Positions 1-33,374 of a DNA stretch of 37,895 nucleotides are shown here, one piece after another. The notes under the pieces were generated by a model, which was not told where the DNA came from, did not search any database, and saw only the letters and a list, made by a program, of their open reading frames with translations. The position numbers and the translations under genes were made by a program. Positions within the stretch are counted from its first letter, which is position 1; every line of letters begins with the position of its first letter. This stretch comes from Caldilineales bacterium (GTDB taxonomy: Bacteria > Chloroflexota > Anaerolineae > J102): contig JAIBAP010000057.1 in assembly GCA_019695115.1 (NCBI GenBank), forward strand, positions 1 through 37,895. Direction: 5' to 3'.

Positions 1-10
1 GCCGCCCTCT

Positions 11-718: not shown

Positions 719-832
719 CGGTGGCTCCAGGAAGGGGAGGGGATGGGGAAGACGCTCCCTTGTAGCTTAGGCGACAACGGCGGCTGTGGCAAGTTGTAGC
801 GAGGCGGCCAAAGGCCAGGTGTGCGACAAACC

Positions 833-891: not shown

Positions 892-942
892 AGTTCGCAA
901 CTTATTCGTTGCGGGAAAGCGGCTCTTTGCCCGAAAAACCTA

Positions 943-971
943 TTGACAGCCCCCCCGAACTTTGCTACTGT
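943..971 (+). promoter_or_regulatory. Strong sigma70-type promoter
   Basis: A perfect -35 TTGACA (943-948), a 17-nt spacer and a -10 TACTGT (966-971) preceded by TGC, giving an extended -10. The predicted start is near 978, only a few bases before the hairpin at 980-1023. It should drive the nuclease-like gene at 1044 and possibly the small ORF and recombinase behind it. Confidence 0.75.
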
Positions 972-979
972 GACCCTCA

Positions 980-1028
980 AGAAGTGGCTACTGCGCCTCC
1001 CAGCGCGCGCAGTAGCCACTTTTCTTTT
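980..1028 (+). terminator. Intrinsic terminator or attenuator at the transcript 5' end
   Basis: AGTGGCTACTGCGC (983-996) pairs perfectly with GCGCAGTAGCCACT (1007-1020) around a 10-nt loop, and TTTCTTTT follows. One or two more pairs extend the base at 982/1021. A 14-bp GC-rich stem plus a T tract is the classic intrinsic terminator. Because the strong promoter fires about 5 nt upstream, most transcripts would end after about 50 nt. That makes it either a small RNA or an attenuator of the downstream genes. Confidence 0.7.
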
Positions 1029-1043
1029 CCTCCGGAACCGGCC

Positions 1044-1967
1044 ATGCCCCCTTCAGTTTCCCCTTCCATCCCCCCCTCCTGCCCCCGTCCCCCTGCCGCC
1101 TATGCCTCCCTCTGGCGACACGCCGGCAAGTCCTGGCCCCGCGACCTGCAGGCTCTCTCGCTCATGGCCGTCACCGGCTGGTCGGCCCGGCTTTCTCTGG
1201 CCGAATGGCTGGTGTCCCACGACCCTCGGCTGGCCTCCATCCAGGCCGGCTCCATCCTCCGTCTCTGGCGCCGGCTGGGAGAACGGGACCTCATCCGCCA
1301 GCACACCCAGGTGATCGACCCCCGCGCCCACGTCGCCGTCGCCGTTGTCGAGCTCACCGCCCTGGGGCGCGACCTGCTGTATGAGCTCGGTGTCCAGGCT
1401 GCGGTCTCCGAGTGGCAGCGGCTGCGGCTCTGGCACCAGGCTGACGCCCAGCCCCGGCATACGGCCATGGTTCTGCTCGCCGCCCACTATTTCCGCAAGA
1501 GGGGCTACCGGACGGTCGTCTGTCCCGAAGCGGACGGGCTCTTGGCGCCCGACCTCCTGATCTTACACCCCGCCGGCGGCCAGACCGTCTATGTCGAGGT
1601 TGAGGCGCCGGGGCGGGGCGGGCTGGTGCACATGGCCCGGCAGCGGCGCAAGTGGGAGATGCAGGCGAGCGGGCAGGGCTTTGTCGCCTTCTGCGCACTC
1701 AACCCCCGGCAGCGGGGGCAGAAGCTGGCGCTGGCCAGGCGCGCGTCTGCGAGCGGCATAGCCACCGACCTGCTCACCCTGCACGCCCAGCCGGAAGTGA
1801 CGTGGGCGAGCATCTGGGGCGATCCCCTTGCCAACGCCGCCGGCAGGGGGGACGAAAGCCATTGGGAAGGTATATCCTGGGCAACAAGAATCTTGCCCGT
1901 CAACCCCGATTCTGGCGCGACTTCCCAGCCCCTTGCTGGCGTGCAAGCCCGTCAAGGGGGAGGGTGA
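1044..1967 (+). CDS. Winged-helix plus PD-(D/E)XK-like (replication-relaxation-like) protein
   Basis: A 307-aa protein if it starts at 1044, the first in-frame ATG behind the promoter/hairpin leader. The upstream extension in this frame is proline-rich and crosses the promoter, so it is rejected. Residues about 20-110 look like a helical winged-helix region. The middle contains APDLLILHP followed by TVYVEVEAPGRGG, a D-x(n)-E-x-E arrangement like the PD-(D/E)XK nuclease fold and the replication-relaxation family, where the lysine is often missing. It may therefore bind DNA or cut it weakly; activity cannot be judged. The last 30 residues are encoded by the first copy of the 20-bp direct repeat at 1884 and may be non-native. 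It precedes the serine recombinases and is probably mobile-element cargo or an accessory. No good ribosome binding site is visible. Confidence 0.5.
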   Translation: MPPSVSPSIPPSCPRPPAAYASLWRHAGKSWPRDLQALSLMAVTGWSARLSLAEWLVSHDPRLASIQAGSILRLWRRLGERDLIRQHTQVIDPRAHVAVAVVELTALGRDLLYELGVQAAVSEWQRLRLWHQADAQPRHTAMVLLAAHYFRKRGYRTVVCPEADGLLAPDLLILHPAGGQTVYVEVEAPGRGGLVHMARQRRKWEMQASGQGFVAFCALNPRQRGQKLALARRASASGIATDLLTLHAQPEVTWASIWGDPLANAAGRGDESHWEGISWATRILPVNPDSGATSQPLAGVQARQGGG

Positions 1968-1992
1968 AGGTCACAAGAATCTTGCCCGTCAA
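1884..1992. repeat. 20-bp direct repeat, 89-bp period
   Basis: ACAAGAATCTTGCCCGTCAA occurs at 1884-1903 and again, identical, at 1973-1992. A shortened copy (GCAAGCCCGTCAAGG) lies between them near 1943. Each full copy contains the near-palindrome CAAGAATCTTG. The repeats span the 3' end of the nuclease-like gene and sit about 150-250 bp before the first recombinase. They could be recombinase or regulator sites, or a local duplication. Confidence 0.8.
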
Positions 1993-2127
1993 GGCCGTTT
2001 GCATGCGCCTCTGGCCTTGACCACAAGACTGACCGATTACCCAAACCCATCTCTCCCCATCAAGGCGTCTTTGCCCACTTTCCGCACCCATCGCCGAGAT
2101 CCCGGCACCATTTGGAGGCTCTACTCC

Positions 2128-2256
2128 ATGAAACACCTGTCTGAAGACGAAGCCCAGCAGCAATTCATCAGAGTCGTCGCCACCATCTTGCGACGCCTGC
2201 TGCAACCCAACCCCGACAGCCAGGGGCAGGCTACTCATGCCGATGCACCCGCCTGA
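2128..2256 (+). CDS. 42-aa small ORF upstream of recombinase 1
   Basis: A GGAGG Shine-Dalgarno (2114-2118) lies 9 nt before this ATG. The ORF encodes a short acidic N-terminus, a helical stretch (QQFIRVVATILRRLLQ) and a polar tail. It overlaps the start of recombinase 1 by 20 nt in another frame, an arrangement typical of translational coupling. I recognise no family. It could be a small partner or directionality-type protein, or simply a leader peptide that loads ribosomes for the recombinase. The ribosome binding site and overlap support it; nothing else does. Confidence 0.45.
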   Translation: MKHLSEDEAQQQFIRVVATILRRLLQPNPDSQGQATHADAPA

Positions 2257-3883
2257 CAAAGAATGGGTTGCCGTCGGTCTGGTCCGCACCTCCACCATCA
2301 TGCAGGTGGAAACGGGCCTGAGCATGATCACCCAGCCTGAACGCATCCGCGAGTTTGCGGCCCGTAATGGCCTCACGCTCAGCCACCTGTATGAAGAACC
2401 GGGCATCTCCGGTCGCAAGGCTCAGCGTAACACCGTCGATCGCATCTTGCGCGATGCGCGCGCTGGCAGATTCAATCTGCTCGTCGTCACCGACGTCTCC
2501 CGCTTCTTTCGCAATCTGGAGGCGCTCATCTCCGCCATCAAGACCCTGAAGGCCTCGGGCGTCGACTTCCTGTCCATTGACGACGGCATCGACACCCGGC
2601 GCCAGGACAGCTGGGGCAACGAACTGGTCATGGTCATCCTCGGCATGCTGGCCGAGCTTTACGCAGTGCAGCTGGCCCACAACACGCGCGAGGGCAAATA
2701 TCGTCGTTTCAAGCTGGGGCTATGGAACGGCTCGATCCCCTTCGGCTACTGCAATGGCCTCTGCTCCAACTGCACCCACCCCAATGGCTCCGACTACTGC
2801 CCCAACTTCGGCCGGCCCGACCTCGGCAACGGCGCCGACCTGATCCTCCACCCCATCGAATCGGACGGCGTGCGTCTCGCCTTCGAGACCTACGCCACCG
2901 GCGACTTCTCCGATTACGACACCGCCGAAATGCTCGCCCAGCATGAAGTGGCGGTGGCTGACGGATCGGTGCGGCGCCTGCGAGTGCCTTGCAAGCGACC
3001 CCCCAAGGAGGAAATTCCCCTGCCCGCACAGAGCCCGAGACCGCCGCATGGCTACCGGCCGCCCTACAAGGACTTCGTACGATATCTGTTGCAACGCCCC
3101 TTCTACGCCGGCTCTGTCACCTATACTCACGAACCGGGACCAAAGCAGCCGCACACCCCGATTTGGGTGGAAGAGAATACCGGCACCCATCCTGCCATTA
3201 TCTCTCGTGAACTGTTCGAGCAGGTGCAGCGCCTGCGCAGCAGCATCGGCACCAATTCCCGCCGTCAGGGCGAATCCCGGCGCATCTACCCGCTGAGCGG
3301 TCTGCTGCGTTGCGGGCGCTGCGGCGGCCCGATGCGAGGCACAAGCGCCAACGGCGGTGTCCGCTACTACCAGTGCTCACAACGCGCCGAACGCCATCGT
3401 CTGACCAACGGCCAGGAATGCGAGCAGCCCCTGGTGCAGGCTGACTCTGTCGAGGATGAGGTTGTCGCCCTTTTGCAGCGTCTGGCCGTGCCTGCACATC
3501 TGCGACCTGATATCCTGGCCCATTGTTTCTACCAGGATGATGTGGAGGTCATCGACTACCGCCGGCGCAAACTGATCAACTCCATGCAGCGCTACACCCA
3601 GCTGTATGAAGTCGGAACCATCGCCTGGGAGGAGTTCCAGACCAGACTGACCGGCCTGCGCAAGGCCATCGCCGAACTCACGCCCGATCAGCAGGCAAGT
3701 GCGCCGCAGGCGGAGTCGCTCCTAGGCAGCATAGCGACATTGTGGGCAGCGGCCACCGACGTGGAGCGGAGGTTATTGAGTTTGCTGGTCTTTCGCTACC
3801 TGGTCGTGAAAGATCAGGGGCTGACCGGCTATGCCTTTCGTCGCTTCATCGCACCGGCAAGAACAGAGGAAGAGCTCCGATGA
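2237..3883 (+). CDS. Large serine recombinase 1 (unusual active site)
   Basis: A 548-aa site-specific recombinase. It has a resolvase-type catalytic domain (about 10-165), a recombinase domain (about 165-340), a zinc ribbon with C359, C362, C380 and C395, and a C-terminal helical/coiled region. The nucleophile is S19 in LVRTST. The family motif YxRxS has Leu15 in place of Tyr. The aspartate of the usual DRxxR motif is replaced by Ser88 (SRFFRN), while R89 and R92 remain. Between catalytic and recombinase domains there is an extra cysteine cluster, C172-x3-C176-x2-C179-x8-C188, likely metal binding. ATG 2237 or 2243 could be the start. Large serine recombinases normally integrate, excise or invert DNA. 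The tandem neighbour at 4076 has the canonical active site, so the pair may act together, as CcrA/CcrB do. Confidence 0.93.
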   Translation: MPMHPPDKEWVAVGLVRTSTIMQVETGLSMITQPERIREFAARNGLTLSHLYEEPGISGRKAQRNTVDRILRDARAGRFNLLVVTDVSRFFRNLEALISAIKTLKASGVDFLSIDDGIDTRRQDSWGNELVMVILGMLAELYAVQLAHNTREGKYRRFKLGLWNGSIPFGYCNGLCSNCTHPNGSDYCPNFGRPDLGNGADLILHPIESDGVRLAFETYATGDFSDYDTAEMLAQHEVAVADGSVRRLRVPCKRPPKEEIPLPAQSPRPPHGYRPPYKDFVRYLLQRPFYAGSVTYTHEPGPKQPHTPIWVEENTGTHPAIISRELFEQVQRLRSSIGTNSRRQGESRRIYPLSGLLRCGRCGGPMRGTSANGGVRYYQCSQRAERHRLTNGQECEQPLVQADSVEDEVVALLQRLAVPAHLRPDILAHCFYQDDVEVIDYRRRKLINSMQRYTQLYEVGTIAWEEFQTRLTGLRKAIAELTPDQQASAPQAESLLGSIATLWAAATDVERRLLSLLVFRYLVVKDQGLTGYAFRRFIAPARTEEELR

Positions 3884-3940
3884 AACCGTTTCTTTTCCCG
3901 CTCTTAGACTCCATCTATACCTTTTCCCATATATCAGAAT

Positions 3941-3960
3941 TACTGACCAATTGGTCAGTA
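3941..3960. promoter_or_regulatory. Perfect 20-bp operator-like palindrome
   Basis: TACTGACCAATTGGTCAGTA is exactly self-complementary. A degenerate copy (TGTCCAAATGGTCA) follows near 3976-3989, and the right half TTGGTCAGTA recurs at 4014-4023 inside the spacer of the next promoter. TGACCA-n-TGGTCA dyads are typical of TetR-type and related repressor sites. The three copies in 83 bp suggest cooperative repression of recombinase 2. They could alternatively be recombinase accessory sites. Confidence 0.65.
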
Positions 3961-4006
3961 TCTGCGCAGCTTTGCTGTCCAAATGGTCAATTATGATGCA
4001 TATTTC

Positions 4007-4035
4007 TTGACAGTTGGTCAGTATTGCATTAGCAT
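4007..4035 (+). promoter_or_regulatory. Promoter of recombinase 2 with operator half-site in the spacer
   Basis: -35 TTGACA (4007-4012), 17-nt spacer, -10 TAGCAT (4030-4035). The spacer contains TTGGTCAGTA, the same half-site as the palindrome at 3941, so a bound protein would block RNA polymerase. The predicted start near 4042 gives a short leader of about 34 nt without a Shine-Dalgarno before ATG 4076. Confidence 0.65.
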
Positions 4036-4075
4036 TTCAGTATTCTTTTTCGATCCCACTATTCCTTGCCATTTC

Positions 4076-5656
4076 ATGCGCGCTGCTGCCTACATCCGTG
4101 TCTCCACGCCCGGCCAGGTCGAAGAGGGCCACTCCCTCGAAGCCCAGACCCAGGACATCTATGCCTTCGCCAATGTGAAAGGGTGGGACATCATTGCTAC
4201 CTATGCCGACGAAGGCATCTCCGGCAGCCTGGCTGACCGCCCTGGCCTGGTTCGGTTGCTGCGGGACGCCGAGGCGGGTCTGTTTGAGGTAGTGATTGTG
4301 CACAAGGTCGACCGCTTCTTTCGCGACTTGGCTGGTTTCCTTAGTGCGCTTAGCCGGCTCAACGAAGCCAACGTCAGCTTTCTTTCGGTGCGCGAGAACA
4401 TCGACTTCACCTCGCCCTGGGGTAAGCTGGCCCTCGTCATCCTTGCCACCATCGCCGAGATTTTCCTTGATATGCTACGCGATGAGACGATGAAGGGCAA
4501 GAAACAGCGCGTACGCAAGGGGATGTGGAACGGATCCATCCCCAACGGCTATTGCCTGGGGAACTGCTCGAGCTGTAACGACTACAACGGGCCCGGCTAC
4601 TGCCCCAATGTGGGACGCGAGAACATCGGCGACGGCCGCAACCTGGCGCCTCACCCACTCGACAGCATCGCCGTGCGCAAGATGTTCGAATGGTATGTGC
4701 ACGGTGACCACTCTGACGCTGATATCGCCGAACGCATCAACAGCTACGAGCACGTTCTGCCGGATGGCACGGTCGTGCACTTTCGCTCACGCGGGCGCGG
4801 CCAGGGCAGTGGGTTCCCACCAGGCCCCTACGGCAAAGACACGATCCGCAGCATGCTTCAGCACGTCGTCTACACAGGCGTCATCACCTACAAGGGCGAT
4901 GTGCTGCCAGGCAATCACCCGGCCATCATCGACGAAGAGTCGTTTGCACAGGCGCAACGCGTGCGCCGACTGCGAGGCACCAACCCACAGAGCCAGAATA
5001 CGACGAGCAAGGCAATGGCGCGCGCATTTCTACTTACCGGCATCCTACGCTGTGGGCAATGCGGCAGCCAGATGCGGGGCCAGACCGGCGCCAAGAAGGT
5101 GCGGTTTTATCAGTGCGTAAACCGCTTGCAGAAGAAGCAGCCGTGCCGACAGCCAATGGTGAAGGCTGAGCCACTGGAGCAGGCGCTGGTGCAGCTCGTG
5201 CAGAGCGTGCGTATTCCCGAAGAGGGCCGGGAACAGGTCCTGGCCAAGGCATTTCCCCATTGCGATGTCGCTGCGATCGAGATGCAGGAGGCCGAGTTGC
5301 GGGCACGCTACGAGCGCGTGGTCGAACTCTACCTGGCCGGCAAGATCAAGCGCACCAAGTTTGATGAAGAGGAGTTGGCCTATCGACGCGATGCTGTGCG
5401 TTTGACCAGTGGCCAGAGCGGAGCTATCCTGGAAGCCGTTCGGCTGGTCACCCGATTCCCCACCCTGTGGGAGACCTCAACCGTTCTAGAACAAAAAGCA
5501 CTACTGCAAACCATACTTTCCACCGTTCACATACGGGGCGAAAAAATCGAGGGCGTTCAGCCACAACCTGGCTTTTACGCCCTCTTCGAGTATTGGAGCT
5601 ACGGGAGCGACGGGGATCGAACCCGCGATCTTCGGCTTGACAGGCCGACGTGTTAA
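4076..5656 (+). CDS. Large serine recombinase 2, C-terminus encoded within tRNA-Asp
   Basis: A 526-aa recombinase starting [11 protein letters not shown]; the ATG at 4076 lies just behind the predicted promoter, and the in-frame upstream extension would cross it. The catalytic motifs are canonical: Y6, R8, S10, and D79-R80-x2-R83. The inserted cysteine cluster C160-x3-C164-x2-C167-x8-C176 has the same spacing as in recombinase 1. The zinc ribbon uses C326, C329, C347 and C357, followed by a helical C-terminal region. The last 17 residues ([17 protein letters not shown]) come from the complement of the tRNA-Asp gene at 5602-5674. This suggests the element is joined to the tRNA gene there. The protein is likely the active integrase/excisionase of the element, perhaps with recombinase 1. 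Operator-like repeats upstream point to tight repression. Confidence 0.93.
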
Positions 5657-5674
5657 CCGCTACACTACGCCCCC
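5602..5674 (-). tRNA. tRNA-Asp (anticodon GTC)
   Basis: Read on the minus strand from 5674: acceptor GGGGGCG pairs with CGCTCCC (one G-U). The D arm is GTGT/ACAC, and the anticodon stem TCGGC/GCCGA encloses CTGTCAA with anticodon GTC at 5641-5639. The T arm is GCGGG/CCCGT with loop TTCGATC, and the discriminator is G, as expected for Asp. CCA is not encoded. The length is 73 nt. Its 3' half overlaps the end of the recombinase 2 reading frame on the other strand. Confidence 0.95.
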
Positions 5675-5700
5675 TCGACGGGTCTTCGATTGTGAGCCAG

Positions 5701-5730
5701 AGTGTAGCCGGGGCAGGGGAATTCTGTCAA
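5701..5730 (-). promoter_or_regulatory. tRNA-Asp promoter
   Basis: On the minus strand TTGACA (5730-5725), an 18-nt spacer and TACACT (5706-5701). The predicted start is about 20 nt before the mature tRNA 5' end. The motif and position fit a constitutive tRNA promoter. Confidence 0.7.
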
Positions 5731-5811
5731 ATCAGAAAGGCAGCCGCAGAAGCAAACCGCCGCCAGCGCCCTCCTCCCGCTGCCCACCCCTCGCGCCCAC
5801 CCCTCCCCCCT

Positions 5812-5915
5812 CCCTCCGTCCCTCCGTCTCCCCCTCCCTCCGTCTCCCCCTCCCTCCGTCCCTCCGTCTCCCCGTCCCTCCGTCTCCCCCTCCCTCCGTC
5901 CCTCCGTCTCCCCCT
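5812..5915. repeat. Octanucleotide array, 13 units
   Basis: Thirteen uninterrupted 8-bp units, mostly CCCTCCGT alternating with CTCCCCCT and one CTCCCCGT. It fills most of the 338-bp stretch between the tRNA and lepA (5675-6012), which otherwise holds only the two promoters. The same 8-bp family occurs in frame at 10711-10750 (opposite orientation) and 21711-21750. Confidence 0.9.
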
Positions 5916-5925
5916 CCCCCCCGCC

Positions 5926-5955
5926 TTGCCGCAGCCTGCCCTTTTTCCGTATAAT
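5926..5955 (+). promoter_or_regulatory. lepA promoter
   Basis: -35 TTGCCG (5926-5931), 18-nt spacer, perfect -10 TATAAT (5950-5955). The predicted start near 5962 leaves a leader of about 50 nt before ATG 6013. Confidence 0.65.
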
Positions 5956-6012
5956 CAGCGTTTGGCGTTCCGTTCCCCCGCCGCCCCCCATCCCAGCCAC
6001 CTCCCACACGGC

Positions 6013-7815
6013 ATGCGCACCAGCCATATCCGCAACTTCTGCATCATCGCCCATATCGACCACGGCAAATCGACCCTGGCCGACCGCCTCATCCAGGTCA
6101 CGCACACCCTCAGCGACCGCGAGATGCAGGACCAGGTGCTCGACAGCATGGATCTGGAGCGCGAAAAAGGCGTCACCATCAAAGCCTCGGCCGTGCGCAT
6201 GCAGTACGAAGCCCGAGATGGCCAGACCTACGAACTCAACCTCATCGACACCCCCGGTCATGTCGATTTCGGCTACGAAGTCTCGCGGGCGCTGAAAGCC
6301 TGCGAGGGGGCGGTGCTGGTGGTGGATGCCTCCCAGGGCATCGAAGCCCAGACCCTGGCCAACCTCTACCAGGCCATCGACCAGGGCCTGGAGATCATCC
6401 CTGTCATCAACAAGATCGACCTCCCCGCCGCCCGACCGGACGAAGTGGCGCACGACCTCGAAGACCTGATCGGCATCGACGGGCTTGACATCCCTCGCAT
6501 CTCGGCCAAAGACGGCGTCAACGTCGAAGCCGTGCTGGAGGCAGTCGTCAAGCAGGTTCCCCCGCCGGTGGGCGACCCCGAAGCGCCGTTGCAGGCCCTC
6601 ATCTTCGACAGCCACTACGATTCCTACAAGGGCGTCGTCGCCTATGTACGGGTCATGAACGGCCGCATCCGGCGCCGCGAACTGCTGCGGCTGATGTCGA
6701 CCGAGGCCAGCACCGAGCCGCTCGAGATCGGCGTCTTCACGCCGCTGATGCGCCCGGTGGAGGAACTGGAGGCGGGCGAGGTGGGCTATGTGGCCTCTGG
6801 CCTCAAGACCATCCGCGAATGCCGGGTGGGCGACACCTTCACCCTGGCCGCCAACCCCGCCGCCGAAGCCCTCCCCGGCTTCCGGCCGCTCAAACCGATG
6901 GTCTTTGCCGGCGTCTATCCCTCGGAAGGCGACGACTACAATCTGCTGCGCGACGCCCTGGAGAAACTGCAACTCAACGACGCCTCGCTCAGTTACCAGC
7001 CCGAGACCTCGCAGGCGCTGGGTTTTGGTTTCCGCTGCGGCTTCCTCGGTCTTTTCCACATGGAGATCATCCAGGAACGGCTGGAGCGCGAGTACGACCT
7101 CGACCTGGTGTTCACCGCACCCTCGGTGGAGTATCAGATTACCCTGACCGATGAGCGAGAAATCGTCATCGACAGCCCGGCCGAGATGCCCGACCCCAAC
7201 TACATCGCCGAGATCCGGGAGCCGTGGGTCGAGATCAACGTCATCACGCCCACCGAGTTCATCGGCGTGATCATGGACCTGGTGACGAAACGCCGCGGCG
7301 AATTCAAAAACCAGGAATATCTCGATCAGCGTCGCGTCCAACTCAGCTACACCATCCCCCTGACCGAGATCCTGGTCGATTTCTACAACGAACTCAAGGC
7401 CCGCACCCGCGGCTATGCCTCGCTCGATTACCATTTCCGTGAATATCGGCCGGCCGAGATGGTCAAGCTCGACCTCCTGGTAGCCGGGCAAGCGGTGGAC
7501 GCCCTCTCGGTCATCGTCCACGCCGACCAGACCTACACCAAAGGCCAGCGTCTGGTTTCCAAGATGAAGGACGTCATACCGCGGCAGCAGTTCGATGTCG
7601 CCATCCAGGCGGCGGTCGGCAAGCGCGTGATCTCCCGCGCCAATGTCAAGGCGATGCGGAAGGACGTGCTGGCCAAATGCTACGGCGGCGACATCACCCG
7701 CAAACGCAAGCTGCTGGAAAAGCAGAAAAAAGGCAAAAAGCGCATGAAGATGGTCGGTTCCGTCGAAATCCCGCAAGAGGCGTTTATGTCTGTTCTGCGG
7801 CTTGAAGAAGAATAA
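6013..7815 (+). CDS. lepA: Elongation factor 4 (LepA), ribosome back-translocating GTPase
   Basis: A 600-aa translational GTPase, the normal LepA length when started at 6013 ([20 protein letters not shown]). The G1 motif AHIDHGKST lies at 13-21, the switch region follows with [11 protein letters not shown], then DTPGHVDF and NKID. The C-terminal LepA-specific domain is present, including the run [17 protein letters not shown] near the end. LepA binds stalled or mis-translocated ribosomes and catalyses back-translocation at the cost of GTP. The longer frame starting at 5650 would read through the tRNA gene and the octamer array and is rejected. The gene is a housekeeping landmark that probably marks host chromosome to the right of the mobile region. 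Confidence 0.98.
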
Positions 7816-24672: not shown

Positions 24673-27600
24673 ACCGCCTTCTCTACCTTCTCCTCGCCCT
24701 CCTCCTTGCCGCCATCGGCCAGCGCTGGCTCACGCATGGCGGCATCCCGCGCGACTCGCTCATCCTTTTCGTCATCGCCGGCGTCATCTTCGCCACGGTC
24801 TCGCAGCGCCCGCCCGCCTGGCCGCAGTTGCCGCCGCGCCGCAAATGGATGTATATCGGCATTGGGCTGGCCGGGGCGGCCCTGCTGCTGGTGGGGATAG
24901 CCAGCACACAGTTCTGGCAGGGGCAGTTCAGCGGCTGGGCTTTCTGGCTGTGGATCATCGCCATCGTCCTCTTCCTCATCGCCATCTTCCTCGACCTCCC
25001 CTCGCCCAACCCGGCCGGGGAACAGGAAGCCGGGCGGGCGTGGCGCGACGGCGACCCTTCGCTACACCCAGGGCAGGCCCTCGACCGCCGCTGGCTCATC
25101 GGCCTGCTGGCCCTGATCCTGATCGTGGCCATTGCCGTCCGCTTCTACGCCCTGGGAACCTACCCCAACGGCTGCCAGTCGGACGAGTGCAACAACGGGT
25201 TGGACGCACTCAAATGGCTGAGTGGACAGCCGTATCTGCCTTACGCCGAGACCAACGAGGGCCAGGCCACCCTCTTCACCTACTTCATCGCCCTTTTCAT
25301 CAGACTGTTCGGCCAGAGCGTGACCACCATGCGCGCCGTCTCCGCCCTGGCCGGCTCGCTCACCGTCCTGGCCTTCTACTTCCTGGCCCGCGAACTCTAC
25401 GGCCAGCGGCTGGCCCTGCTCACGGCCGCCCTGCTGGCCGCCGACCGCTGGCACCTCACCTTCAGCCGCATCGTCTACGAACTGATCCTGATGCCGCTGG
25501 TCTTGTCCTTGCAGATCCTGTTCCTGGTCAAGGCTCTGAAGACCGGGCGACGCCGCTGGTGGGGGTTGGCGGGGTTGATGCTGGCCCTGGGGATGAACAC
25601 CTACACCGCCTATCGCCTTGTCCCCATCTTCACCGGTCTCTATTTCCTCTACTGGCTGATCGCCCATCGCCAGCGCATCCGCCGCGACCTGGAGGGGATG
25701 ATCGTCTTTGCGGCGGGCGCGGTCGTGGGCGTGGCTCCGCTCGGCGTCTACATCATCCGCAACTGGAACGTCTTTCTCTCGCGCATCAACCACATCTCGG
25801 TCTTCCGCGATGTCGAGGCCGCCGGCTCGTATGCGCCGCTATGGTCGAACCTGTTCAAGACGCTGTACATGTTCAACTGGCAGGGCGATGTGGCGGCGCT
25901 GAACAACCTGCCCGCCGCCCCCTTGTTGCAGGCCATCGTCGCCGTGTTGTTCGTCCTCGGCATGGCTTTGGCCATCCGTTGGTTCTGGCGCGAGCAGCCC
26001 TTCCTCTACCTGGTTTGGTTCGGGGCCATTGCCAGCGTGGCCGTGCTCTCGGTCGCACACGAGGCCCCCACCGCCCGCCGGCCCATCGGCCTGGTCCCGG
26101 TCATCTACCTGCTCGTCGCCGCCGTCTTCCAGCAGATCTGGTGGGCCTGGGAGAAGGGATGGGGCGTCAAACGCTGGCGTCCGCTGGCCGTTGGGCTGGC
26201 CGGGCTTGTCATCTTCGTCATGGCGGCCAACCTCAACACCTATTTTCGGGTGCAGGCCGTCAGCCCGGAGGTGTGGGGCGCCTACAGCCCCAACGAATCG
26301 GCCGTGGGCGAGCACCTGGCCGAGATGCCGCCAGAAACGCGCATCTTCATGACCCCGCAATACACACATCATTCGGCGGTCAAATTCATCGGCGGCCCGC
26401 ACGACATCACCATCCTCAACCTATCCGAGCACGTGCCCCTGCGCCAGGACCCCGGCGGCGACGTAGAGTACCTGCTCGAACCGGTGGATGAACGTCTGAT
26501 CCCCCTCCTGCAGCAGCTCTATCCCAGCGGCAGCTACGAAACCCACACCGACAAATTCGGCCGGCCGCTGTTCCTCACCTATGACGTTTCTCGCGCTGCC
26601 CTCGACGCCGCCCGCGGCCTGCAAACCGCCTACGCCCCGCTGGGAGAACAAGCCGCCCCGCCCGCACCCGGCCCCCAGGTGCAGGCCATCGACTTCGACT
26701 TCGCCGCCACCCCCGCCCCCCTCCCGGCCCCCTTCCAGGTCGAATACCAGGGCGCCCTCCTCGTTCCCGGCTACGGCGACTACACCTTCGAGTTGCTGGA
26801 CGACGGCGGCGAAGCAACGCTCTACCTGGATGAGGTCGAGGCGATCACGGTGCGCAACGGCAGCAAACAAATCCAGCGCACCCTCCCCGGTGGCTTCCAG
26901 GGCTTGCGCCTGGTCTATCGCGCCGACGCTCAACCCGGCAAGCTGCGGCTGAGCTGGGCGACGCCGGCCAACCCCACCCTCACCGCCATCGACCCGGCCT
27001 CGCTCTACACCCTGCCCGGCGCCTCGAACGGGCTAGTCGGCTACTACTACGCCAGCCCCGACTGGTCGGGCACGCCCAGCCTGATCCAGCGCGACCTCTT
27101 CATCCTGCCCAACAACTCCCTGCGCGAACCGTTCTCCATCCGTTGGGTGGGCAAGGTCGCCGCCCCCACCGCCGGAACCTACGTCTTCGGCGCCCGTTCG
27201 GACGATGGCTCGTTGGTCGCGGTCGATGGCCAGTTGGTGGTCGATAACAGCGGCTCGCACGGCTCCGAATACCGCGAGGGCGTGATCGACCTGAGTGAGG
27301 GCTTTCACGACATCGAAGTCAAATACAACGAGCTGGGCGGGTCGCGTGACATGCAACTCTGGTGGCAGCCCCCCGGCGGCGGCAAGACGATCATCCCCAG
27401 CGCCTATCTCTACCCGGCGGAAGACGAACTACCCGCCGGATTGGTGCTGCCCCCGCCGCCCACGCTGGAGACGCCGCTGGTGGCCGTCGAGCCGGAGACG
27501 GGCGCGATCATCGAGACCGCCCCACCGGCTGAACCCGCCCCCGAACAACCCGCCGCAGCCGCCCCGGCCGTAGCTTCACCGCTGGGCGATTTCCCCGCCG

Positions 27601-28448
27601 TGGAACCGGCCGTGCTGTGGACCTTCGGAACCTGCGGCACGACTGAGGATCAACTGCAAAAACCCATCGGCGTGACCGTCGACCGGGAGGGCAACGTCTA
27701 TATCGCCGACATGGTCGGCAATCGCATCGTCAAAATCGGCCCCGACGGCCAGTTCCTGGCTGCCTGGGGCGAGAAAGGCGAGGGACCGGGCCGGTTCACC
27801 GAGGTCTTCGACCTGGAAGTAACGCCGCAGGGCGAGATCGCCGCCCTCGACGCCGTCAACCAAGTCATCTCGCTGTGGTCGCCAGAGGGCGAGTTCCTGC
27901 GTCAGTTCGGCGCCGAGCTGACGACCTACCGGCCGCGCGGGCTTGGCATCGCCGCCAACGGCGACTTCATCGTCGCTGACACGGGCGGCGCACGTATCCT
28001 GCAGGCCGACGCCAACGGCCAACTCATCCAACAATTCGGCGGCCCAGAGGACGAGCTTGGCCCCGGCCAGCCGACCGACGCCACCCTCAGCCCCGGCGGT
28101 TTGCTGTTCGTGGCCGAGCCGATCGCCGGCGCATTCTGGAAGGTGGACCCGTCCAGCGGCCGCCGCGAGCGTTTCCCCGGCCCACTGGCGAACACGATCG
28201 AGTCGCCGCACCTTGCCATTGCCCCGGACGGACGCATCTTGCTGACAGACCCCGAAGGCGGCCGCGTCCTGGCCCTGACGCCGGATGTGCGGCCGCTGGC
28301 GCAGTTTGGGACGCGCGGGGCCGCACCCGGCCAGTTCGGCCGCCCTGTTGGCGTCGCCTTCGGCCCGGATGACGTCATGCTCGTGACCGACCCGGATCTG
28401 TGCCGGGTGACGGCCTTGAGCACAACGGCCTTGAGTGGGACGCCGTAG
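24669..28448 (+). CDS. GT39-like glycosyltransferase with PA14-like modules and NHL propeller
   Basis: A 1259-aa protein, translationally coupled to the antitoxin by an ATGA overlap. Three to four N-terminal helices precede the GT-C domain, whose catalytic-type pair is D172-E173 (NGCQSDECNNGLDALKW). After the last helix at about residue 525 comes a soluble stretch, a PA14-like half (about 670-780, YGDYTFELLDDGGEATLYLD) and a clearer PA14 domain (about 785-920, GLVGYYYASPDWSG ... ARSDDGSLVAVDGQLVVDN). A Pro/Ala/Glu-rich linker and an NHL propeller (about 980-1255, VTVDREGNVYIADMVGNRIV) complete it. The outer part should bind carbohydrate and possibly protein. It is the only protein here with both module types. 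No repeat arrays interrupt it. Confidence 0.87.
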   Translation: MNRLLYLLLALLLAAIGQRWLTHGGIPRDSLILFVIAGVIFATVSQRPPAWPQLPPRRKWMYIGIGLAGAALLLVGIASTQFWQGQFSGWAFWLWIIAIVLFLIAIFLDLPSPNPAGEQEAGRAWRDGDPSLHPGQALDRRWLIGLLALILIVAIAVRFYALGTYPNGCQSDECNNGLDALKWLSGQPYLPYAETNEGQATLFTYFIALFIRLFGQSVTTMRAVSALAGSLTVLAFYFLARELYGQRLALLTAALLAADRWHLTFSRIVYELILMPLVLSLQILFLVKALKTGRRRWWGLAGLMLALGMNTYTAYRLVPIFTGLYFLYWLIAHRQRIRRDLEGMIVFAAGAVVGVAPLGVYIIRNWNVFLSRINHISVFRDVEAAGSYAPLWSNLFKTLYMFNWQGDVAALNNLPAAPLLQAIVAVLFVLGMALAIRWFWREQPFLYLVWFGAIASVAVLSVAHEAPTARRPIGLVPVIYLLVAAVFQQIWWAWEKGWGVKRWRPLAVGLAGLVIFVMAANLNTYFRVQAVSPEVWGAYSPNESAVGEHLAEMPPETRIFMTPQYTHHSAVKFIGGPHDITILNLSEHVPLRQDPGGDVEYLLEPVDERLIPLLQQLYPSGSYETHTDKFGRPLFLTYDVSRAALDAARGLQTAYAPLGEQAAPPAPGPQVQAIDFDFAATPAPLPAPFQVEYQGALLVPGYGDYTFELLDDGGEATLYLDEVEAITVRNGSKQIQRTLPGGFQGLRLVYRADAQPGKLRLSWATPANPTLTAIDPASLYTLPGASNGLVGYYYASPDWSGTPSLIQRDLFILPNNSLREPFSIRWVGKVAAPTAGTYVFGARSDDGSLVAVDGQLVVDNSGSHGSEYREGVIDLSEGFHDIEVKYNELGGSRDMQLWWQPPGGGKTIIPSAYLYPAEDELPAGLVLPPPPTLETPLVAVEPETGAIIETAPPAEPAPEQPAAAAPAVASPLGDFPAVEPAVLWTFGTCGTTEDQLQKPIGVTVDREGNVYIADMVGNRIVKIGPDGQFLAAWGEKGEGPGRFTEVFDLEVTPQGEIAALDAVNQVISLWSPEGEFLRQFGAELTTYRPRGLGIAANGDFIVADTGGARILQADANGQLIQQFGGPEDELGPGQPTDATLSPGGLLFVAEPIAGAFWKVDPSSGRRERFPGPLANTIESPHLAIAPDGRILLTDPEGGRVLALTPDVRPLAQFGTRGAAPGQFGRPVGVAFGPDDVMLVTDPDLCRVTALSTTALSGTP

Positions 28449-28579
28449 ATCAGATAGAAGTCATCCTGGCGGCCGTCGTCTCGGCGCTGACGAGAGGCGC
28501 CTGACGATAGAGGCCGAAGACCTGCCCGCCCACCGTCCTGACGAGACGATCGCGGCCGCCGGCTGCCCTGGCCCCCTGT

Positions 28580-28622
28580 TTGCGCCAGCGCAAAGACGGA
28601 CGCGACAAGGCTGGTGTATACT
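28580..28622 (+). promoter_or_regulatory. CRP/FNR-type box and -10 of the DUF1858 gene
   Basis: TTGCGCCAGCGCAA (28580-28593) is a symmetric TTGCG-n4-CGCAA box. TATACT (28617-28622) lies 30.5 nt from its centre, so the box is centred near -42 from the expected start. This is the class II activator position, and no -35 is needed. Sequence and geometry match those at 30536-30577 and 30629-30670. Confidence 0.7.
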
Positions 28623-28643
28623 GGCAGACACATGGAGACCGCG

Positions 28644-28826
28644 ATGACGACCCCTGCTCTGACCGAATTGACCGTGGCCGAGCTGCTGGCGCGCTGGCCG
28701 CAGGCCATCCCTGTATTCCTGCGCCGCCAGATGGCCTGCGTAGGCTGCACCATGTCGCCCTTCGAGACCCTGGCCGACGTCACCGCCGTCTACGGCATCC
28801 CCCTGCCCGGCTTTGTGGGCGAATAA
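28644..28826 (+). CDS. DUF1858 redox-disulfide protein
   Basis: A 60-aa protein of the DUF1858 family (also seen at the N-terminus of RIC/ScdA proteins and beside hybrid-cluster proteins). It contains the redox pair C32-x2-C35 (ACVGCTM) after the family helix LTVAELLARWPQAIPVFLRR. ATG 28644 is chosen because GGAG lies 6 nt upstream; ATG 28632 would make the mRNA almost leaderless. The likely role is thiol redox or metal handling in Fe-S metabolism under NO or oxygen limitation. It shares its promoter type with DUF2249 and ric further on. Confidence 0.88.
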   Translation: MTTPALTELTVAELLARWPQAIPVFLRRQMACVGCTMSPFETLADVTAVYGIPLPGFVGE

Positions 28827-28860
28827 TAGATCGGTAGGCCCCATGTCCTAACTCGATGCC

Positions 28861-29346
28861 ATGGTCCACAAGATGAACACAGCCCGTCCCACGGAAATCG
28901 ATGCACTTGTCGCTCGGTTCTTTTCCGCGTTTGACAACCGCGGCGGACGCGTTCCCGACTTCGATGGCCTGTGTGCTATGTTCTCTCCCGGCGCTGTGGT
29001 GGTTTCGCACAACGGCATCACGCCCACTGTTTCCTCACCTGAGCAATTTGCGGCCCCGCGCGTCGCATTGCTCACCAGCGGCAAACTCGTCGAGTTCCAC
29101 GAGTGGGAGCAAAGCTCGGAAACTCTCTTCTTCGGAACTCTAGCTACGCGCCGGTCATTCTATTCGAAATCCGGTCTGCTCGCTGGTGCGACATACACCG
29201 GAACAGGGACGAAGTTCTTCCAGTTCGCGCTCTTTGCTGAGGGCTGGCGAATAGTCGCCCTCTCGTGGGTGGACCATGATGCCAATCCTGGCATTACGGA
29301 GGTGTTAGGCGGCGCTTCTCGAAGCCCCATCTTCGTCGCGCCTTAA
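28861..29346 (+). CDS. NTF2/SnoaL-like protein
   Basis: A 161-aa protein (ATG 28861, or 28873 giving MNTARPTEIDALVARFF). The pattern of an N-terminal helix, a pocket strand (MFSPGAVVVSHNG) and a C-terminal sheet (KFFQFALFAEGWRIVALSWVDHD) is that of DUF4440/SnoaL-like cone-shaped pocket proteins. These include isomerases, hydrolases and binding proteins, so the substrate cannot be inferred. Its base composition is less GC-rich than the flanks and no repeats are present, suggesting separate acquisition with the next gene. Confidence 0.65.
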   Translation: MVHKMNTARPTEIDALVARFFSAFDNRGGRVPDFDGLCAMFSPGAVVVSHNGITPTVSSPEQFAAPRVALLTSGKLVEFHEWEQSSETLFFGTLATRRSFYSKSGLLAGATYTGTGTKFFQFALFAEGWRIVALSWVDHDANPGITEVLGGASRSPIFVAP

Positions 29347-29408
29347 ACTGCGTGCAAGGCATAGCAAGCCACTTCACCCTGCAAGAGCAAATAAGGAGAA
29401 TCATCGGT

Positions 29409-29972
29409 ATGAAGAAGATATCGGTATTCAACCACGTAACCATTGACGGCCTCTTTGCTGGGCCTAATGGAGAGATCGATTGGTTCCAAGCCGTCCATGA
29501 CGACGAGTGGAACAGGTATGCCCAGGAACACGCTGACCTGTCACATAACACACTGATGTTCGGTCACACTACCTACAGAATGATGAAAGGCTGGTGGCCC
29601 ACGCCTGTTGCAAGGCAAATGGATCCACATATGGCTGAGGTAATGAACAATAGCCCCAAGATTGTGTTTTCAAGACGGCTCAAAAGTGCCAAAGATGAGC
29701 CGCATTGGAAGAACATCAGGGTCTTCCATCACATAGACCTGGACGAATTACAGGCCCTCAAGAGAAAGGAGAGCATCACCGTTCTAGGCAGCGGCACGAT
29801 CGTCCAACAGATGGCAAATCTCGGGCTCATTGATGAATACTTGCTAGTTGTTGTGCCAATCATTCTCGGAAAGGGTAAGCCCCTGTTCAAAGGCGTTGAC
29901 AAAGCAAATCTGAGACTCGTAGAGGAAAAGGCATTTGGGAATGGTATCGTATTGTTGCGCTACCAAGCGTAG
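29409..29972 (+). CDS. Dihydrofolate reductase-like (RibD C-terminal family) protein
   Basis: A 187-aa protein starting MKKISVFNHVTIDGLFAGPNGE, with AAGGAG 13 nt before the ATG. It shows the family features: strand and turn VTIDGLFAGP near the N-terminus, LMFGHTTYRMM, IVFSRRL, and the nucleotide-loop VLGSGTIVQQM followed by DEYLLVVVPIILGKGKPLF. Such proteins reduce pterin, flavin-precursor or other small substrates with NAD(P)H. Members outside riboflavin synthesis are of unknown function and often stand alone, as here. Lower GC than the surroundings suggests transfer. Confidence 0.9.
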   Translation: MKKISVFNHVTIDGLFAGPNGEIDWFQAVHDDEWNRYAQEHADLSHNTLMFGHTTYRMMKGWWPTPVARQMDPHMAEVMNNSPKIVFSRRLKSAKDEPHWKNIRVFHHIDLDELQALKRKESITVLGSGTIVQQMANLGLIDEYLLVVVPIILGKGKPLFKGVDKANLRLVEEKAFGNGIVLLRYQA

Positions 29973-30054
29973 TTTTGGAGAGCGCCCCCGCTTTGCAGCC
30001 ACGAAGCCCAACTCGGTCCGATCTTCGGGCAAGCAACAAGCGCCCCCGATGTGC

Positions 30055-30213
30055 TCAACACGCCGGTTTCTCCCGTCCAAAAATGAGCCGCCCACGCGCA
30101 TCGGGGGTGCACCTGGCCCTATCCCCCTGCTCTTTCCACCAGAGGCGGTCGAGGAGGAACCCTTCCTCCCAGACCGCCTCTGCCGCGTCGTAGGCACGCT
30201 TGACCCGGATCAG
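30055..30213 (-). pseudogene. DUF488 N-terminal fragment
   Basis: Directly behind the DUF2249 stop, another frame reads IRVKRAYDAAEAVWEEGF and LLDRLWWKEQ. This resembles the conserved N-terminus of DUF488 proteins (IRVKRVY... followed by G-R-x-LVDRLWPRG). Only about 30 residues match, the family is about 115 aa long, and no ordinary start codon exists; a CTG overlapping the upstream TGA is the only candidate. It is best read as a decayed gene that was once coupled to DUF2249. The remaining bases to 29973 show nothing. Confidence 0.45.
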
Positions 30214-30446
30214 GCCGCCGGCCGACCGATGCGCACCCGCCATGCCTCCGGCCCCTGCTCCAGGTAGTCCCAGGTGAACTGGCCTGCTAGCTCGGCCTGG
30301 AACTGATAGAACAGCGGCCTGGGATTGTGGTCGTTGACCAGGACAAAACCCTCGCCCGGGGCCAGGGCCTCGAACTTCTCGAAGATGAGGGGGTGGCGGT
30401 GCATGGGGTGGATGGTGCGGATGTCCAGCGTCGGTTCGTTGCTCAT
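30210..30446 (-). CDS. DUF2249 protein
   Basis: A 78-aa protein with AAGGAG before its ATG (30446). Family features: LDIRTIHPMHRHPLIFEKFEAL, then the near-invariant GEGFVLVNDHNPRPLFYQF and the C-terminal WDYLEQGPEAWRVRI. DUF2249 proteins are small, often fused to or adjacent to hemerythrin/RIC and DUF1858 proteins and controlled by FNR/DNR-type regulators. Their biochemistry is not settled. Here it is divergent from ric and has its own exact FNR box. Confidence 0.9.
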   Translation of the reverse strand: MSNEPTLDIRTIHPMHRHPLIFEKFEALAPGEGFVLVNDHNPRPLFYQFQAELAGQFTWDYLEQGPEAWRVRIGRPAA

Positions 30447-30535
30447 GAGGTGCAGACTCCTTGAAGGGGTGAGGGGCAGAGAGGGTGATGGGGCTGCCGG
30501 CCCCGGATAGACCAGGGTGTGACAGGCGTGAGGGC

Positions 30536-30577
30536 ATGATACAACACCTGCGGCCTCCCCTCTTTGATCTAGATCAA
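30536..30577 (-). promoter_or_regulatory. Exact FNR-type box and -10 of the DUF2249 gene
   Basis: TTGATCTAGATCAA (30564-30577) is an exact TTGAT-n4-ATCAA palindrome. On the minus strand the -10 TATCAT lies at 30541-30536, 29.5 nt from the box centre. This is the same class II spacing as at the two other promoters. Confidence 0.78.
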
Positions 30578-30628
30578 GCGCGCGGTTCCGCCACAAAAGA
30601 CAGCACAGGATCCAATTCTCGCGCCTGC

Positions 30629-30670
30629 TTGCGCCAGATCAAAGACGGACGCCCGCGCCTGGTGTAGGAT
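30629..30670 (+). promoter_or_regulatory. CRP/FNR-type box and -10 of the ric operon
   Basis: TTGCGCCAGATCAA (30629-30642) combines the left half of the 28580 box with the right half of the FNR box. The -10 TAGGAT (30665-30670) begins 29.5 nt from its centre. The downstream bases AGACGGACGC and CTGGTGTA are shared with the DUF1858 promoter, so the two promoters look duplicated. Confidence 0.72.
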
Positions 30671-30733
30671 GGGGCTGTCGACCGAGATGAAAAGTCCAAC
30701 GTCTGACTTCGCCAACACACCACGAGGATACCC

Positions 30734-31483
30734 ATGACCACAATCGCACGTTTTCCCCATCTCACCCCCACCCAGAGCGTCGGCGCCTGGGTCACGGCCG
30801 ATTACCGGCTGGCGGCCCTGTTCCAGCGTCATGGCATCGACTTCTGCTGCGGCGGCGACAAACCGCTGAGCCAGGCCTGCGCCGAGCAGGGCATCGGCCT
30901 GGAGACGCTGCTGGACGAGGCCCGGCAAGTGACGGCGACCGCGGACGGCAGCGAACAGTACGACCGCTGGACGCTGGACTTCCTGGCCGACTACATCATC
31001 AACCAGTTCCATGCCGCCAACCGCCAGACCATGCCCCAGATCGCCGATTACGCGGCCACGGTGGCCCAGGTGCACGGCGCCGCCCATCCCGAGACCATCG
31101 CCATCGCCAACCTCTGGCCGCGGGTGCAGGGAGAGATGGGCATGCACATGCAGCGGGAGGAGCTGCTGGTCTTCCCCTACATCAAGCGCCTGGCCCGCAG
31201 TCAGGAAGAGGGGACGGCGCCCAAGCCGCTCGCGTCCGGCTCGCTGCCGGAGTTGCTCGACACCCTGGAGGCGGAGCACGACGCCACCGGCGACGCCCTG
31301 GCCGAGATGGCCCGCCTCAGCGACGGCTACACCCCGCCCGCCGACGCCTGCCCCACCTTCCGCACCCTCTACGCCCTGCTGGGCCAATTCGACGCCGCCA
31401 CCAAAAAGCACGTCCACCTGGAGAACAACATCCTCTTCCCCAAGGCCCTGCGCCTGGAAGAGGCCCTGGCCAATCCGGCCTGA
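30734..31483 (+). CDS. ric: RIC-family di-iron protein for Fe-S cluster repair (ScdA/YtfE)
   Basis: A 249-aa protein. The N-terminal ScdA_N domain contains HGIDFCCGGDKPL (C38-C39). The hemerythrin-like domain shows the ligand set expected for YtfE: H93, H138 with E142, H182, and H226 with E230. RIC proteins repair iron-sulfur centres damaged by NO or oxidants and can reduce or release NO at the di-iron site in the cytoplasm. It is first in an apparent operon with the cupin (32-nt gap) and the TIM-barrel gene (15-nt gap). The promoter with a CRP/FNR-type box fits induction by NO or oxygen limitation. Confidence 0.95.
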   Translation: MTTIARFPHLTPTQSVGAWVTADYRLAALFQRHGIDFCCGGDKPLSQACAEQGIGLETLLDEARQVTATADGSEQYDRWTLDFLADYIINQFHAANRQTMPQIADYAATVAQVHGAAHPETIAIANLWPRVQGEMGMHMQREELLVFPYIKRLARSQEEGTAPKPLASGSLPELLDTLEAEHDATGDALAEMARLSDGYTPPADACPTFRTLYALLGQFDAATKKHVHLENNILFPKALRLEEALANPA

Positions 31484-31515
31484 GCCGCCACGCACCATCC
31501 ACAAGGAGCCATTCC

Positions 31516-31842
31516 ATGCAAGCTTTCCAAATCGATCAAGATTACCTCTTCCACGACCGCGACCCCTTTGCCCAGCCACTGTCCGTCGATAAGAGCGGGC
31601 GCATCCTGCGCTTCATGCTCAAGCCGGGCCAGTCGGTGGTGGAGCACACCGCGCCCCATTCGCCCGTCTACATCGTCGTGGTGGCGGGTACGGGTCTCTT
31701 TTCTGGCGCGGGCGGCGAGGCCCAATCCTGCGGCCCCGGCGCGCTGCTGGTGTTCGCGCCGGGCGAGCCGCACGCCATCCACGCCCAGGAGGAGGCTCTC
31801 GTCTTCCTCGCCTTCCTGCACGGTGCGCCGGGCGCGCAGTAG
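31516..31842 (+). CDS. Small cupin protein
   Basis: A 108-aa single-domain cupin with AAGGAG before its ATG. Cupin motif 1 is GQSVVEHTAPHSPVYIVVVAG and motif 2 is PGALLVFAPGEPHAIHA; H44, H48, H86 and H89 could bind metal. Cupins of this size may be metal-dependent enzymes or sensors. Position behind ric suggests a role in the same stress response, perhaps metal or NO related. The exact reaction is unknown. Confidence 0.87.
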   Translation: MQAFQIDQDYLFHDRDPFAQPLSVDKSGRILRFMLKPGQSVVEHTAPHSPVYIVVVAGTGLFSGAGGEAQSCGPGALLVFAPGEPHAIHAQEEALVFLAFLHGAPGAQ

Positions 31843-31857
31843 GCCGGCCATCAGCCT

Positions 31858-32718
31858 ATGAACGAACCGGCCCTCGCCGCCGGCGCCTGGTGCTGGCACG
31901 ATGCCTACTACGCCAGCCGCTGGTCGCTGCTGGATCAGCCGGCCGGCGCCGGCGGCGCCGGCCTGGCGGCCATCGAGTGTAACGACTTCATGCTGCCGCC
32001 GCCCCGCCTCAGCCGGGTGCGGCGGCCCTTGCTAGGCCTGCTGCCTGGCGCGCCGCCGGAGCTCTGGCGCTACAGCCGCGCCAGCCTGCACCAGCTCCAG
32101 GCCAACGCCCAGGCCCACAACATTCGCATCCTGGCCTGGGCCATCAACAGCGACTTTACCGTGCCCGGCTGCCACTGGCCCGCCCAGGCGCTCTACCTAC
32201 GCCGGGGGCTGGCCGCGGCCCGGCTGCTGGACGCGCCCCGGCTGCGCGTCATCCTGGGCGGCAGCACCGAGACGCCCGCCAGCCGCGACGGGCTGATCGT
32301 CCGACGGCTGGCGGCCCTGGTGCGGGCCAGCCCGGCCGCCGTGACCCTGGAGAACCATTGGGGGGTCAGCGCCGACATCGAGCGCCACCTGGCGATCTTC
32401 GATGCCGCGGCCGCAGCCCTGCCGGATGGCCTGCGAGCGCGCTTCGGCTGCTGCTTCGACCCCGGCAACGTGCCCGCAGGCCCGGAACGCCCGCGCTGGT
32501 GGGGCGAGTTGGCCCGCCGCGCCAACCACTTTCATCTCAAGACCACCGCCTTCGACGCCGCTGGCGACGAGACCCACCTGCCCCACGCCGCCATCTTTGG
32601 CCTGCTGGCCGAGGCTGGCTACCGCGGCCCGGTCACCATCGAATACGCCGGGGAGGGCGATCCGATGGACGGGCTGCGGCAGAGCCTGCGCCTCTATCGG
32701 CGGCTGGCCGGTCGATAG
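31858..32718 (+). CDS. TIM-barrel sugar isomerase/epimerase-like protein
   Basis: A 286-aa protein of the xylose isomerase-like TIM-barrel superfamily (AP endonuclease 2 fold). Candidate metal ligands lie at the ends of strands: E165 (AVTLENHWG), D201 (CFDPGN), H226 (NHFHLKTT) and E262 (VTIEYAGEGDP). Relatives isomerise or epimerise sugars and inositols, or act on DNA. The active-site spacing favours the sugar-type enzymes. Location in the ric-cupin operon is unusual for this family and suggests a metal-dependent activity linked to the stress response. Very GC-rich, like ric. Confidence 0.82.
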   Translation: MNEPALAAGAWCWHDAYYASRWSLLDQPAGAGGAGLAAIECNDFMLPPPRLSRVRRPLLGLLPGAPPELWRYSRASLHQLQANAQAHNIRILAWAINSDFTVPGCHWPAQALYLRRGLAAARLLDAPRLRVILGGSTETPASRDGLIVRRLAALVRASPAAVTLENHWGVSADIERHLAIFDAAAAALPDGLRARFGCCFDPGNVPAGPERPRWWGELARRANHFHLKTTAFDAAGDETHLPHAAIFGLLAEAGYRGPVTIEYAGEGDPMDGLRQSLRLYRRLAGR

Positions 32719-32747
32719 CGCCGCCTCCTCCCTTCCGCTTGCCTACG

Positions 32748-32768
32748 GCTGGGATGAGCGCATCCAGC
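32748..32768. repeat. Hairpin, possible IS200-type end
   Basis: GCTGGGATG (32748-32756), AGCG, CATCCAGC (32761-32768): a stem with one bulged G. It lies about 175 bp before the transposase remnant. IS200/IS605 elements carry such hairpins near their ends. No matching right-end hairpin was found past 33374. Confidence 0.4.
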
Positions 32769-32942
32769 TAATCCGCCCATCCTAGCCATCCGCCGGGATC
32801 GCGACTGTCCGGGACTGTGAGAACGGCGGCAGTCGTCGTTTCATCATCCGGATGGCATTTTCATCTGTCTGGACAGCGCGTTGACTGACGAGGTCAAGGC
32901 GCGACTGGAAGATGGGCGGCAGGTGAAGGTGATCTGATTGGC

Positions 32943-33374
32943 CGTCAACGGCTGTTCGCCTACATCGTGCGCAAAGCCGCCGAGCTTGGCGCCTACATCT
33001 ACGCCATCGATGGCTGGACCGAACACACCCACGTCGTCACGGCCATTCCTCCTCACGTCGCCGTTTCCCATTTGGTCAAAATGGCCAAGGGGGCTTCCTC
33101 GCATGACCTCAACCAACAAGGCTTACCTGTTCACTTCGCCTGGCAGCGCGGCTACGGTGTGTTGACACTAGGCCAACGCCAGCTAGCTGACGCCATCGCC
33201 TATGTGCAAAGACAAAAGCAGCACCATGCTCAGAACATAGCTCTGGCGTGGCTGGAACGCTATGAGGAAGTTGATGAGGGGCCGCCCGAGCTCATCGGCC
33301 ACCATCCGCCGTCGGTTCCCACTCTGCGCGAGCCATCGGCCATCTACGAGAGCCGCGGCGATTTACCATTCTGA
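32943..33374 (+). pseudogene. IS200-like (Y1, HUH) transposase remnant
   Basis: The frame reads RQRLFAYIVRKAAELGA, then GWTEHTHVVTAIPPHVAV (HTH as the HUH metal motif), KMAKGASSHDLN, FAWQRGYGVLTLG and AYVQRQKQHH, where the tyrosine is the likely Y1 nucleophile. These match IS200/REP-associated transposases. The expected N-terminus (about 25-35 residues ending before RQRLF) is missing, and the only start left is GTG 32967, inside the domain. It is probably inactive. The bases 32719-32942 contain short ORF scraps only, one ending DEVKARLEDGRQVKVI, which I cannot place. Confidence 0.8.

Follow-up and report, generated by a model that had tools for sequence, protein, structure and literature searches.

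A putative NnrR-type CRP/FNR regulon with fixed promoter geometry in an Anaerolineae bacterium of the phylum Chloroflexota

The window analysed here is a stretch of 37,895 nucleotides that makes up one entire contig of a Caldilineales genome (5.99 Mb in 135 contigs). Three of its promoters precede genes for a DUF1858 protein, a DUF2249 protein and the Fe-S repair protein RIC. These identities, proposed by a first-pass annotation from sequence reading, were confirmed with Pfam and NCBIfam profiles. The ric product matched TIGR03652 with 8.5e-60 and 202.2 bits, just under the NCBIfam cut-off of 204.7, and the DUF1858 start codon (ATG at 28644, with GGAG ahead of it) was picked by eye. We take COG4309 to be the same family as DUF2249, and the window DUF2249 protein is presumably COG4309-like. 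A cupin gene begins 33 nt after ric and is probably co-transcribed with it; a similar cupin in a relative (G006, locus L091) has a box of its own. Between the DUF1858 gene and the DUF2249/ric promoters (28861-29972) lie genes for a RibD_C protein and a protein without Pfam match that looks NTF2-like by eye; these apparently stand outside the regulon. An IS200/Y1-type transposase remnant (32967-33371) adjoins the ric-cupin cluster.

Table 1. Promoter elements and genes of the cluster, in window coordinates
Feature	Position	Strand	Remarks
NnrR-type box TTGCGCCAGCGCAA, DUF1858 promoter	28580..28593	+	putative site
-10 TATACT, DUF1858 promoter	28617..28622	+	23 nt past box; AGAC directly after box
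DUF1858/TIGR03980 protein (hybrid-cluster-protein-associated redox disulfide domain), ~60 aa	28644..28826	+	PF08984 1.5e-9, 38 bits; TIGR03980 2.2e-16
DUF2249 protein, 78 aa	30210..30446	-	PF10006 2e-31, 108 bits
-10 TATCAT, DUF2249 promoter	30536..30541	-	22 nt past box
Box TTGATCTAGATCAA, DUF2249 promoter	30564..30577	-	perfect palindrome; putative site
Hybrid box TTGCGCCAGATCAA, ric promoter	30629..30642	+	putative site
-10 TAGGAT, ric promoter	30665..30670	+	22 nt past box
ric, di-iron Fe-S repair protein (ScdA/YtfE/DnrN type), 249 aa	30734..31483	+	ScdA_N PF04405 and hemerythrin PF01814
Cupin	31516..31842	+	PF07883

Behind each of the three boxes stands the triplet AGA, followed by a -10 hexamer 22-23 nt on, an arrangement of class II type with the box centred at about -41.5. 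The distance from box centre to -10 hexamer was 30.5 nt for DUF1858 and 29.5 nt for both DUF2249 and ric, as the first-pass annotation had placed them, and the predicted box centres lie ~41.5-42.5 nt ahead of the expected start. The bare palindrome TTG-N8-CAA occurred near expectation in the whole window (9 seen, 5.9 expected); the evidence is therefore carried by the geometry and by the AGA after the box.

The genome was scanned for the full architecture, TTGMK-N4-MKCAA-AGA-N19/20-TANNNT, with the reversed pattern as control. Six sites were found, against no reversed control: three in the window, two on contig C15 and one on contig C73. Boxes with this geometry are not frequent at random positions; the group, first described as a unit of three promoters, extends to six in this genome. 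All three sites outside the window are promoters of the same gene families. On C15, one box precedes a gene for a CopD-like membrane protein, followed by TusA-like, DUF2249 and DUF488 genes, and the other precedes DUF1858, hemerythrin and cupin genes (names partly assigned by eye; a TusA fusion is present in the relative locus L161). The C15 cluster is paralogous to that of the window. After the window DUF2249 gene, at ~30140-30210 on the minus strand, a DUF488-like frame (RVKRAYDAAEA...DRLW) is cut short, whereas it is whole in the C15 paralogue; this comparison suggests that the window cluster is a duplicate in decay. On C73, the order is CRP/FNR regulator gene, box, DUF1858 paralogue. Two candidate sites were rejected: C101:14521, a match to a relaxed pattern, falls within a coding frame, and C6:62560 is a box without a -10 hexamer at the proper distance.

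A scan of 298 genomes from the class gave 86 matches to the architecture, in 49 genomes, against 11 reversed controls. The spacing was also counted in loci fetched through regulator homology only, a selection blind to promoter geometry. These loci held 46 boxes, each counted in both orientations; a spacing of exactly 22 nt accounted for 21 matches to a -10 hexamer, and no other spacing for more than two. The box consensus was TTTGCGCYAGCGCAAAGAC and the -10 consensus TATNCT. The AGA to the right of the palindrome was almost invariant and its left mirror positions were conserved at 65-73%, a difference that is partly circular, as AGA was part of the search pattern that retrieved many of the loci. 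The pattern fits a right-hand AGA that doubles as outer operator and -35 element (aaGACg, 17 nt from the -10).

One contig of another assembly, assigned to another family, carries a 100% identical 6,276-bp copy of window positions 26702-32977 (G181:C52, L150, positions 1-6276). Contamination of the window was considered and rejected: its neighbouring gene has orthologues of 66-72% identity throughout its own family and of only ~50-53% in family f20, and the G181 contig turns at a GGC-rich junction into unrelated ExbB/ExbD-like DNA. The G181 contig is probably chimeric or misbinned, and the window would belong to its genome.

A search for proteins that might read the boxes showed that the genome encodes several CRP/FNR-family regulators, of which a single one is associated with a box. 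This candidate (C73, 5889-6605, minus strand) lies directly upstream of the box and DUF1858 paralogue mentioned above and has the recognition helix TLFTVSR. The same box was found near its orthologues in other genomes. Of the 66 genomes with a C73-type regulator (called at >=166 bits), 42 had boxes, compared with 7 of the 232 lacking one (Fisher p ~1e-26, genomes treated as independent). The 24 regulator-bearing genomes that lack the strict pattern may be draft assemblies or have looser boxes. In the tree, the Anaerolineae family joined alphaproteobacterial NnrR at 98/93, a fork that takes in the S. meliloti pSymA protein, presumably NnrR, and its relatives; FNR, DNR and CRP stood apart (DNR-like rows were selected on their gene neighbours and on resemblance to a DNR sequence). 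The helix reads TL[FY]TVSR in most class members and TLHTVSR in Alphaproteobacteria. No FNR-type N-terminal cysteine cluster is conserved in the C73 family. The CRP/FNR helices listed for the genome were TVETAIR, TLFTVSR, YRETATQ, SRESVNK, VREVVGR, YRETISA and VPDVLSR, with no E-x-x-S-R helix of the FNR/DNR type among them. The closest plasmid homologue, from Azospirillum (57%), lies in the order DUF2249, regulator, box TTGCGCGGGCGCAA, DUF1858, with nosZ and nnrS within the same stretch; comparable neighbourhoods (regulator with DUF1858, nirK or nnrS) were met in Azospirillum, Aminobacter and Chelatococcus. The C73 protein thus appears NnrR-like, and adjacency and co-occurrence, a purely computational association, point to recognition of TTGCG-N4-CGCAA. 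A sister regulator family with helix TNIY[SN][VI]SR (L067 in G011, L072 in G014, L082 in G016) is accompanied by boxes TTGCATTTTTGCAA followed by AGACAC, with 22-nt spacing; its half-site specificity seems to have shifted.

Boxed genes in relatives encode NirK (357.7 bits), NosZ (857 bits), a NirS-type cytochrome d1 protein (5e-137) and NrfH. Multihaem cytochromes, ferredoxin, flavodoxin, CopD-type membrane proteins, hemerythrin and cupin are further boxed in the class, as are RIC, DUF2249 and many DUF1858 proteins. Judged by its gene content, the class-wide set is a predicted regulon of nitrogen-oxide respiration and repair. The set in this genome (RIC, DUF1858, DUF2249, CopD, hemerythrin and cupin) looks like repair and detoxification only. 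Profile search revealed no NirK above cut-off in this genome; its two clear heme-copper oxidases adjoin CuA-type matches, so no NO reductase was seen. Its NosZ is of clade II (C42, 43238-45043, L214) and has no recognisable NnrR-type box upstream. The genome is possibly that of a non-denitrifying N2O reducer, given NosZ without above-cut-off NirK and an unboxed nosZ. A PF03063 match on C28 was not taken for hybrid cluster protein, since it appears closer in sequence to carbon monoxide dehydrogenase.

Much of the arrangement described above is already published for Proteobacteria: the motif, the linkage of nnrR to a DUF1858 gene, and the dependence of DUF1858 and COG4309 genes on NnrR. Rodionov et al. 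(2005, PMC1274295) give the NnrR consensus as ctTTGcgnnnncgCAAag and list COG4309 as sharing transcripts with nor genes under NnrR. The boxes agree with this consensus, which supports the early suggestion of NnrR-type sites. In Bradyrhizobium (B. diazoefficiens), the DUF1858 gene bsl7085, beside nnrR, showed a 29-fold drop in an nnrR mutant (PMC6710368). In Thermus, DnrT is required to express DrpA (DUF2249) and DrpB (DUF1858-DUF2249) in nitrate respiration (PMC6282519). No description of an NnrR-type regulon in Chloroflexota was found in the literature searched. The alphaproteobacterial regulon (Rhodobacter, Bradyrhizobium, Sinorhizobium) shares with the present one the TTGCG-N4-CGCAA motif with flanking AAG, the targets nirK, nosZ, COG4309 and DUF1858, the position of nnrR beside a DUF1858 gene, and the tree group. 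It differs in having His where Phe or Tyr stands here in the helix; the present system belongs to another phylum, keeps a very constant class II spacing, and has a boxed set confined in this genome to repair and detoxification. The DNR regulon (Pseudomonas, Betaproteobacteria) resembles it in physiology, in TTGAT half-sites and in having dnrN/ytfE (ric) as a related target; however, DNR has the helix P-E-x-x-S-R and lies outside the C73 group in the tree, and the motif here is mostly TTGCG. FNR shares the TTGAT-N4-ATCAA box and the class II position, whereas the C73 family lacks its conserved cysteine cluster, has the recognition-helix Glu replaced and is far off in the tree. The Thermus system, likened by description, also has DUF2249 and DUF1858 under one regulator, the CRP/FNR protein DnrT, with the two domains fused in DrpB.

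The three window boxes are of unequal sequence, and the first-pass annotation had left open whether one regulator reads all of them or two meet at ric. The mixed sequence of the ric box stood; its reading as a meeting point was not supported, as half-sites drift in orthologous promoters. The box of the CopD/DUF2249-operon promoter is TTGATCTAGATCAA here (AT/AT, G000), TTGATCTAGCGCAA in G073 (AT/CG), TTGATCTAGAGCAA in G123 (AT/GAG), TTGCGATAGATCAA in G006 (CGA/AT) and TTGCGCGAACGCAA in G183 (CG/CG), and each of these five genomes has a regulator with a TL/NL-x-T/S-VSR helix. Likewise, the ric promoter box is TTGCGCCAGATCAA here, TTGCGCCAGCGCAA in G073 and G048, and TTGCGCCAGAGCAA in G108. TTGCG and TTGAT half-sites thus interchange while the type of regulator remains constant. 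A second regulator is not required to account for the hybrid ric box, which on these comparisons is a variant rather than a meeting point. The presence of both pure TTGAT and pure TTGCG boxes in this genome would also agree with a reading in which an FNR/DNR-type protein read TTGAT-N4-ATCAA (DUF2249), an NnrR-type protein read TTGCG-N4-CGCAA (DUF1858), and both acted at ric. In G229 and G122 (L108, L109), moreover, the regulator next to a purely TTGAT-type box, TTGATCTACATCAA, has the helix TLETVSR, and the box precedes an NrfH-like gene. This natural contrast of helix and box, only suggestive and from a single lineage, hints that Glu-bearing relatives may prefer TTGAT. We consider two regulators improbable, however: none of the helices listed for the genome is E-x-x-S-R, the orthologous operon box varies freely with the same regulator type, and mixed half-sites are found at Bradyrhizobium NnrR targets, e.g. 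TTGATCCAGCGCAA at nosR, selected there as FixK2-like boxes (PMC6710368).

A single reader other than the C73 protein is less probable still. The paralogue on C79 (helix TVETAIR) is of a type common in the genome's family and is 34% identical to the C73 protein, which would then be a bystander; but boxes stand next to the regulator in most TL[FYH]TVSR loci and in none of the TVETAIR loci, and many family members carry TVETAIR without boxes. Chance palindromes in GC-rich DNA would agree with the near-expected count of bare TTG-N8-CAA in the window; the reversed controls, in the genome and in the class, and the coherent gene set downstream refute this origin almost completely. The branch with one regulator is thus supported, as no regulator of this genome other than the NnrR-like C73 protein is associated with the boxes.

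We consider it very probable, on the sequence comparisons above, that the three window promoters belong to a single CRP/FNR regulon of NnrR type and are activated in the class II manner, with the C73 regulator as the likely activator. This regulator would sense a nitrogen oxide, most likely NO. Its dimer would bind TTG(CG/AT)-N4-(CG/AT)CAA centred at ~-41.5, beside the weak -35 element (aaGACg), and the bound dimer would recruit RNA polymerase and turn on nitrosative-stress repair. The products switched on would be RIC for Fe-S repair and the small thiol/redox proteins DUF1858 and DUF2249, joined from C15 by the CopD-like membrane protein, hemerythrin and cupin. The same boxes ahead of NirK, NirS, NosZ and NrfH in relatives indicate that the class uses the switch for nitrogen-oxide respiration too. 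A further reading, which we regard as doubtful, is that the NnrR module (regulator, box, DUF1858 and DUF2249) is old and diverse in the class, and that Alphaproteobacteria acquired their NnrR, a side branch, from this diversity. If this were true, the textbook proteobacterial denitrification switch would stem from another phylum.

Wastewater and sediments harbour abundant Anaerolineae. Several members of the set carry NosZ and nitrite reductases, and no paper on their control was found in the literature searched. With the site rule (box, AGA, 22 nt, -10) and a named regulator, the regulon could be predicted from sequence and put to the test. The regulon would also link DUF1858 and DUF2249 proteins, of which little is understood, with nitrogen-oxide responses in one more phylum.
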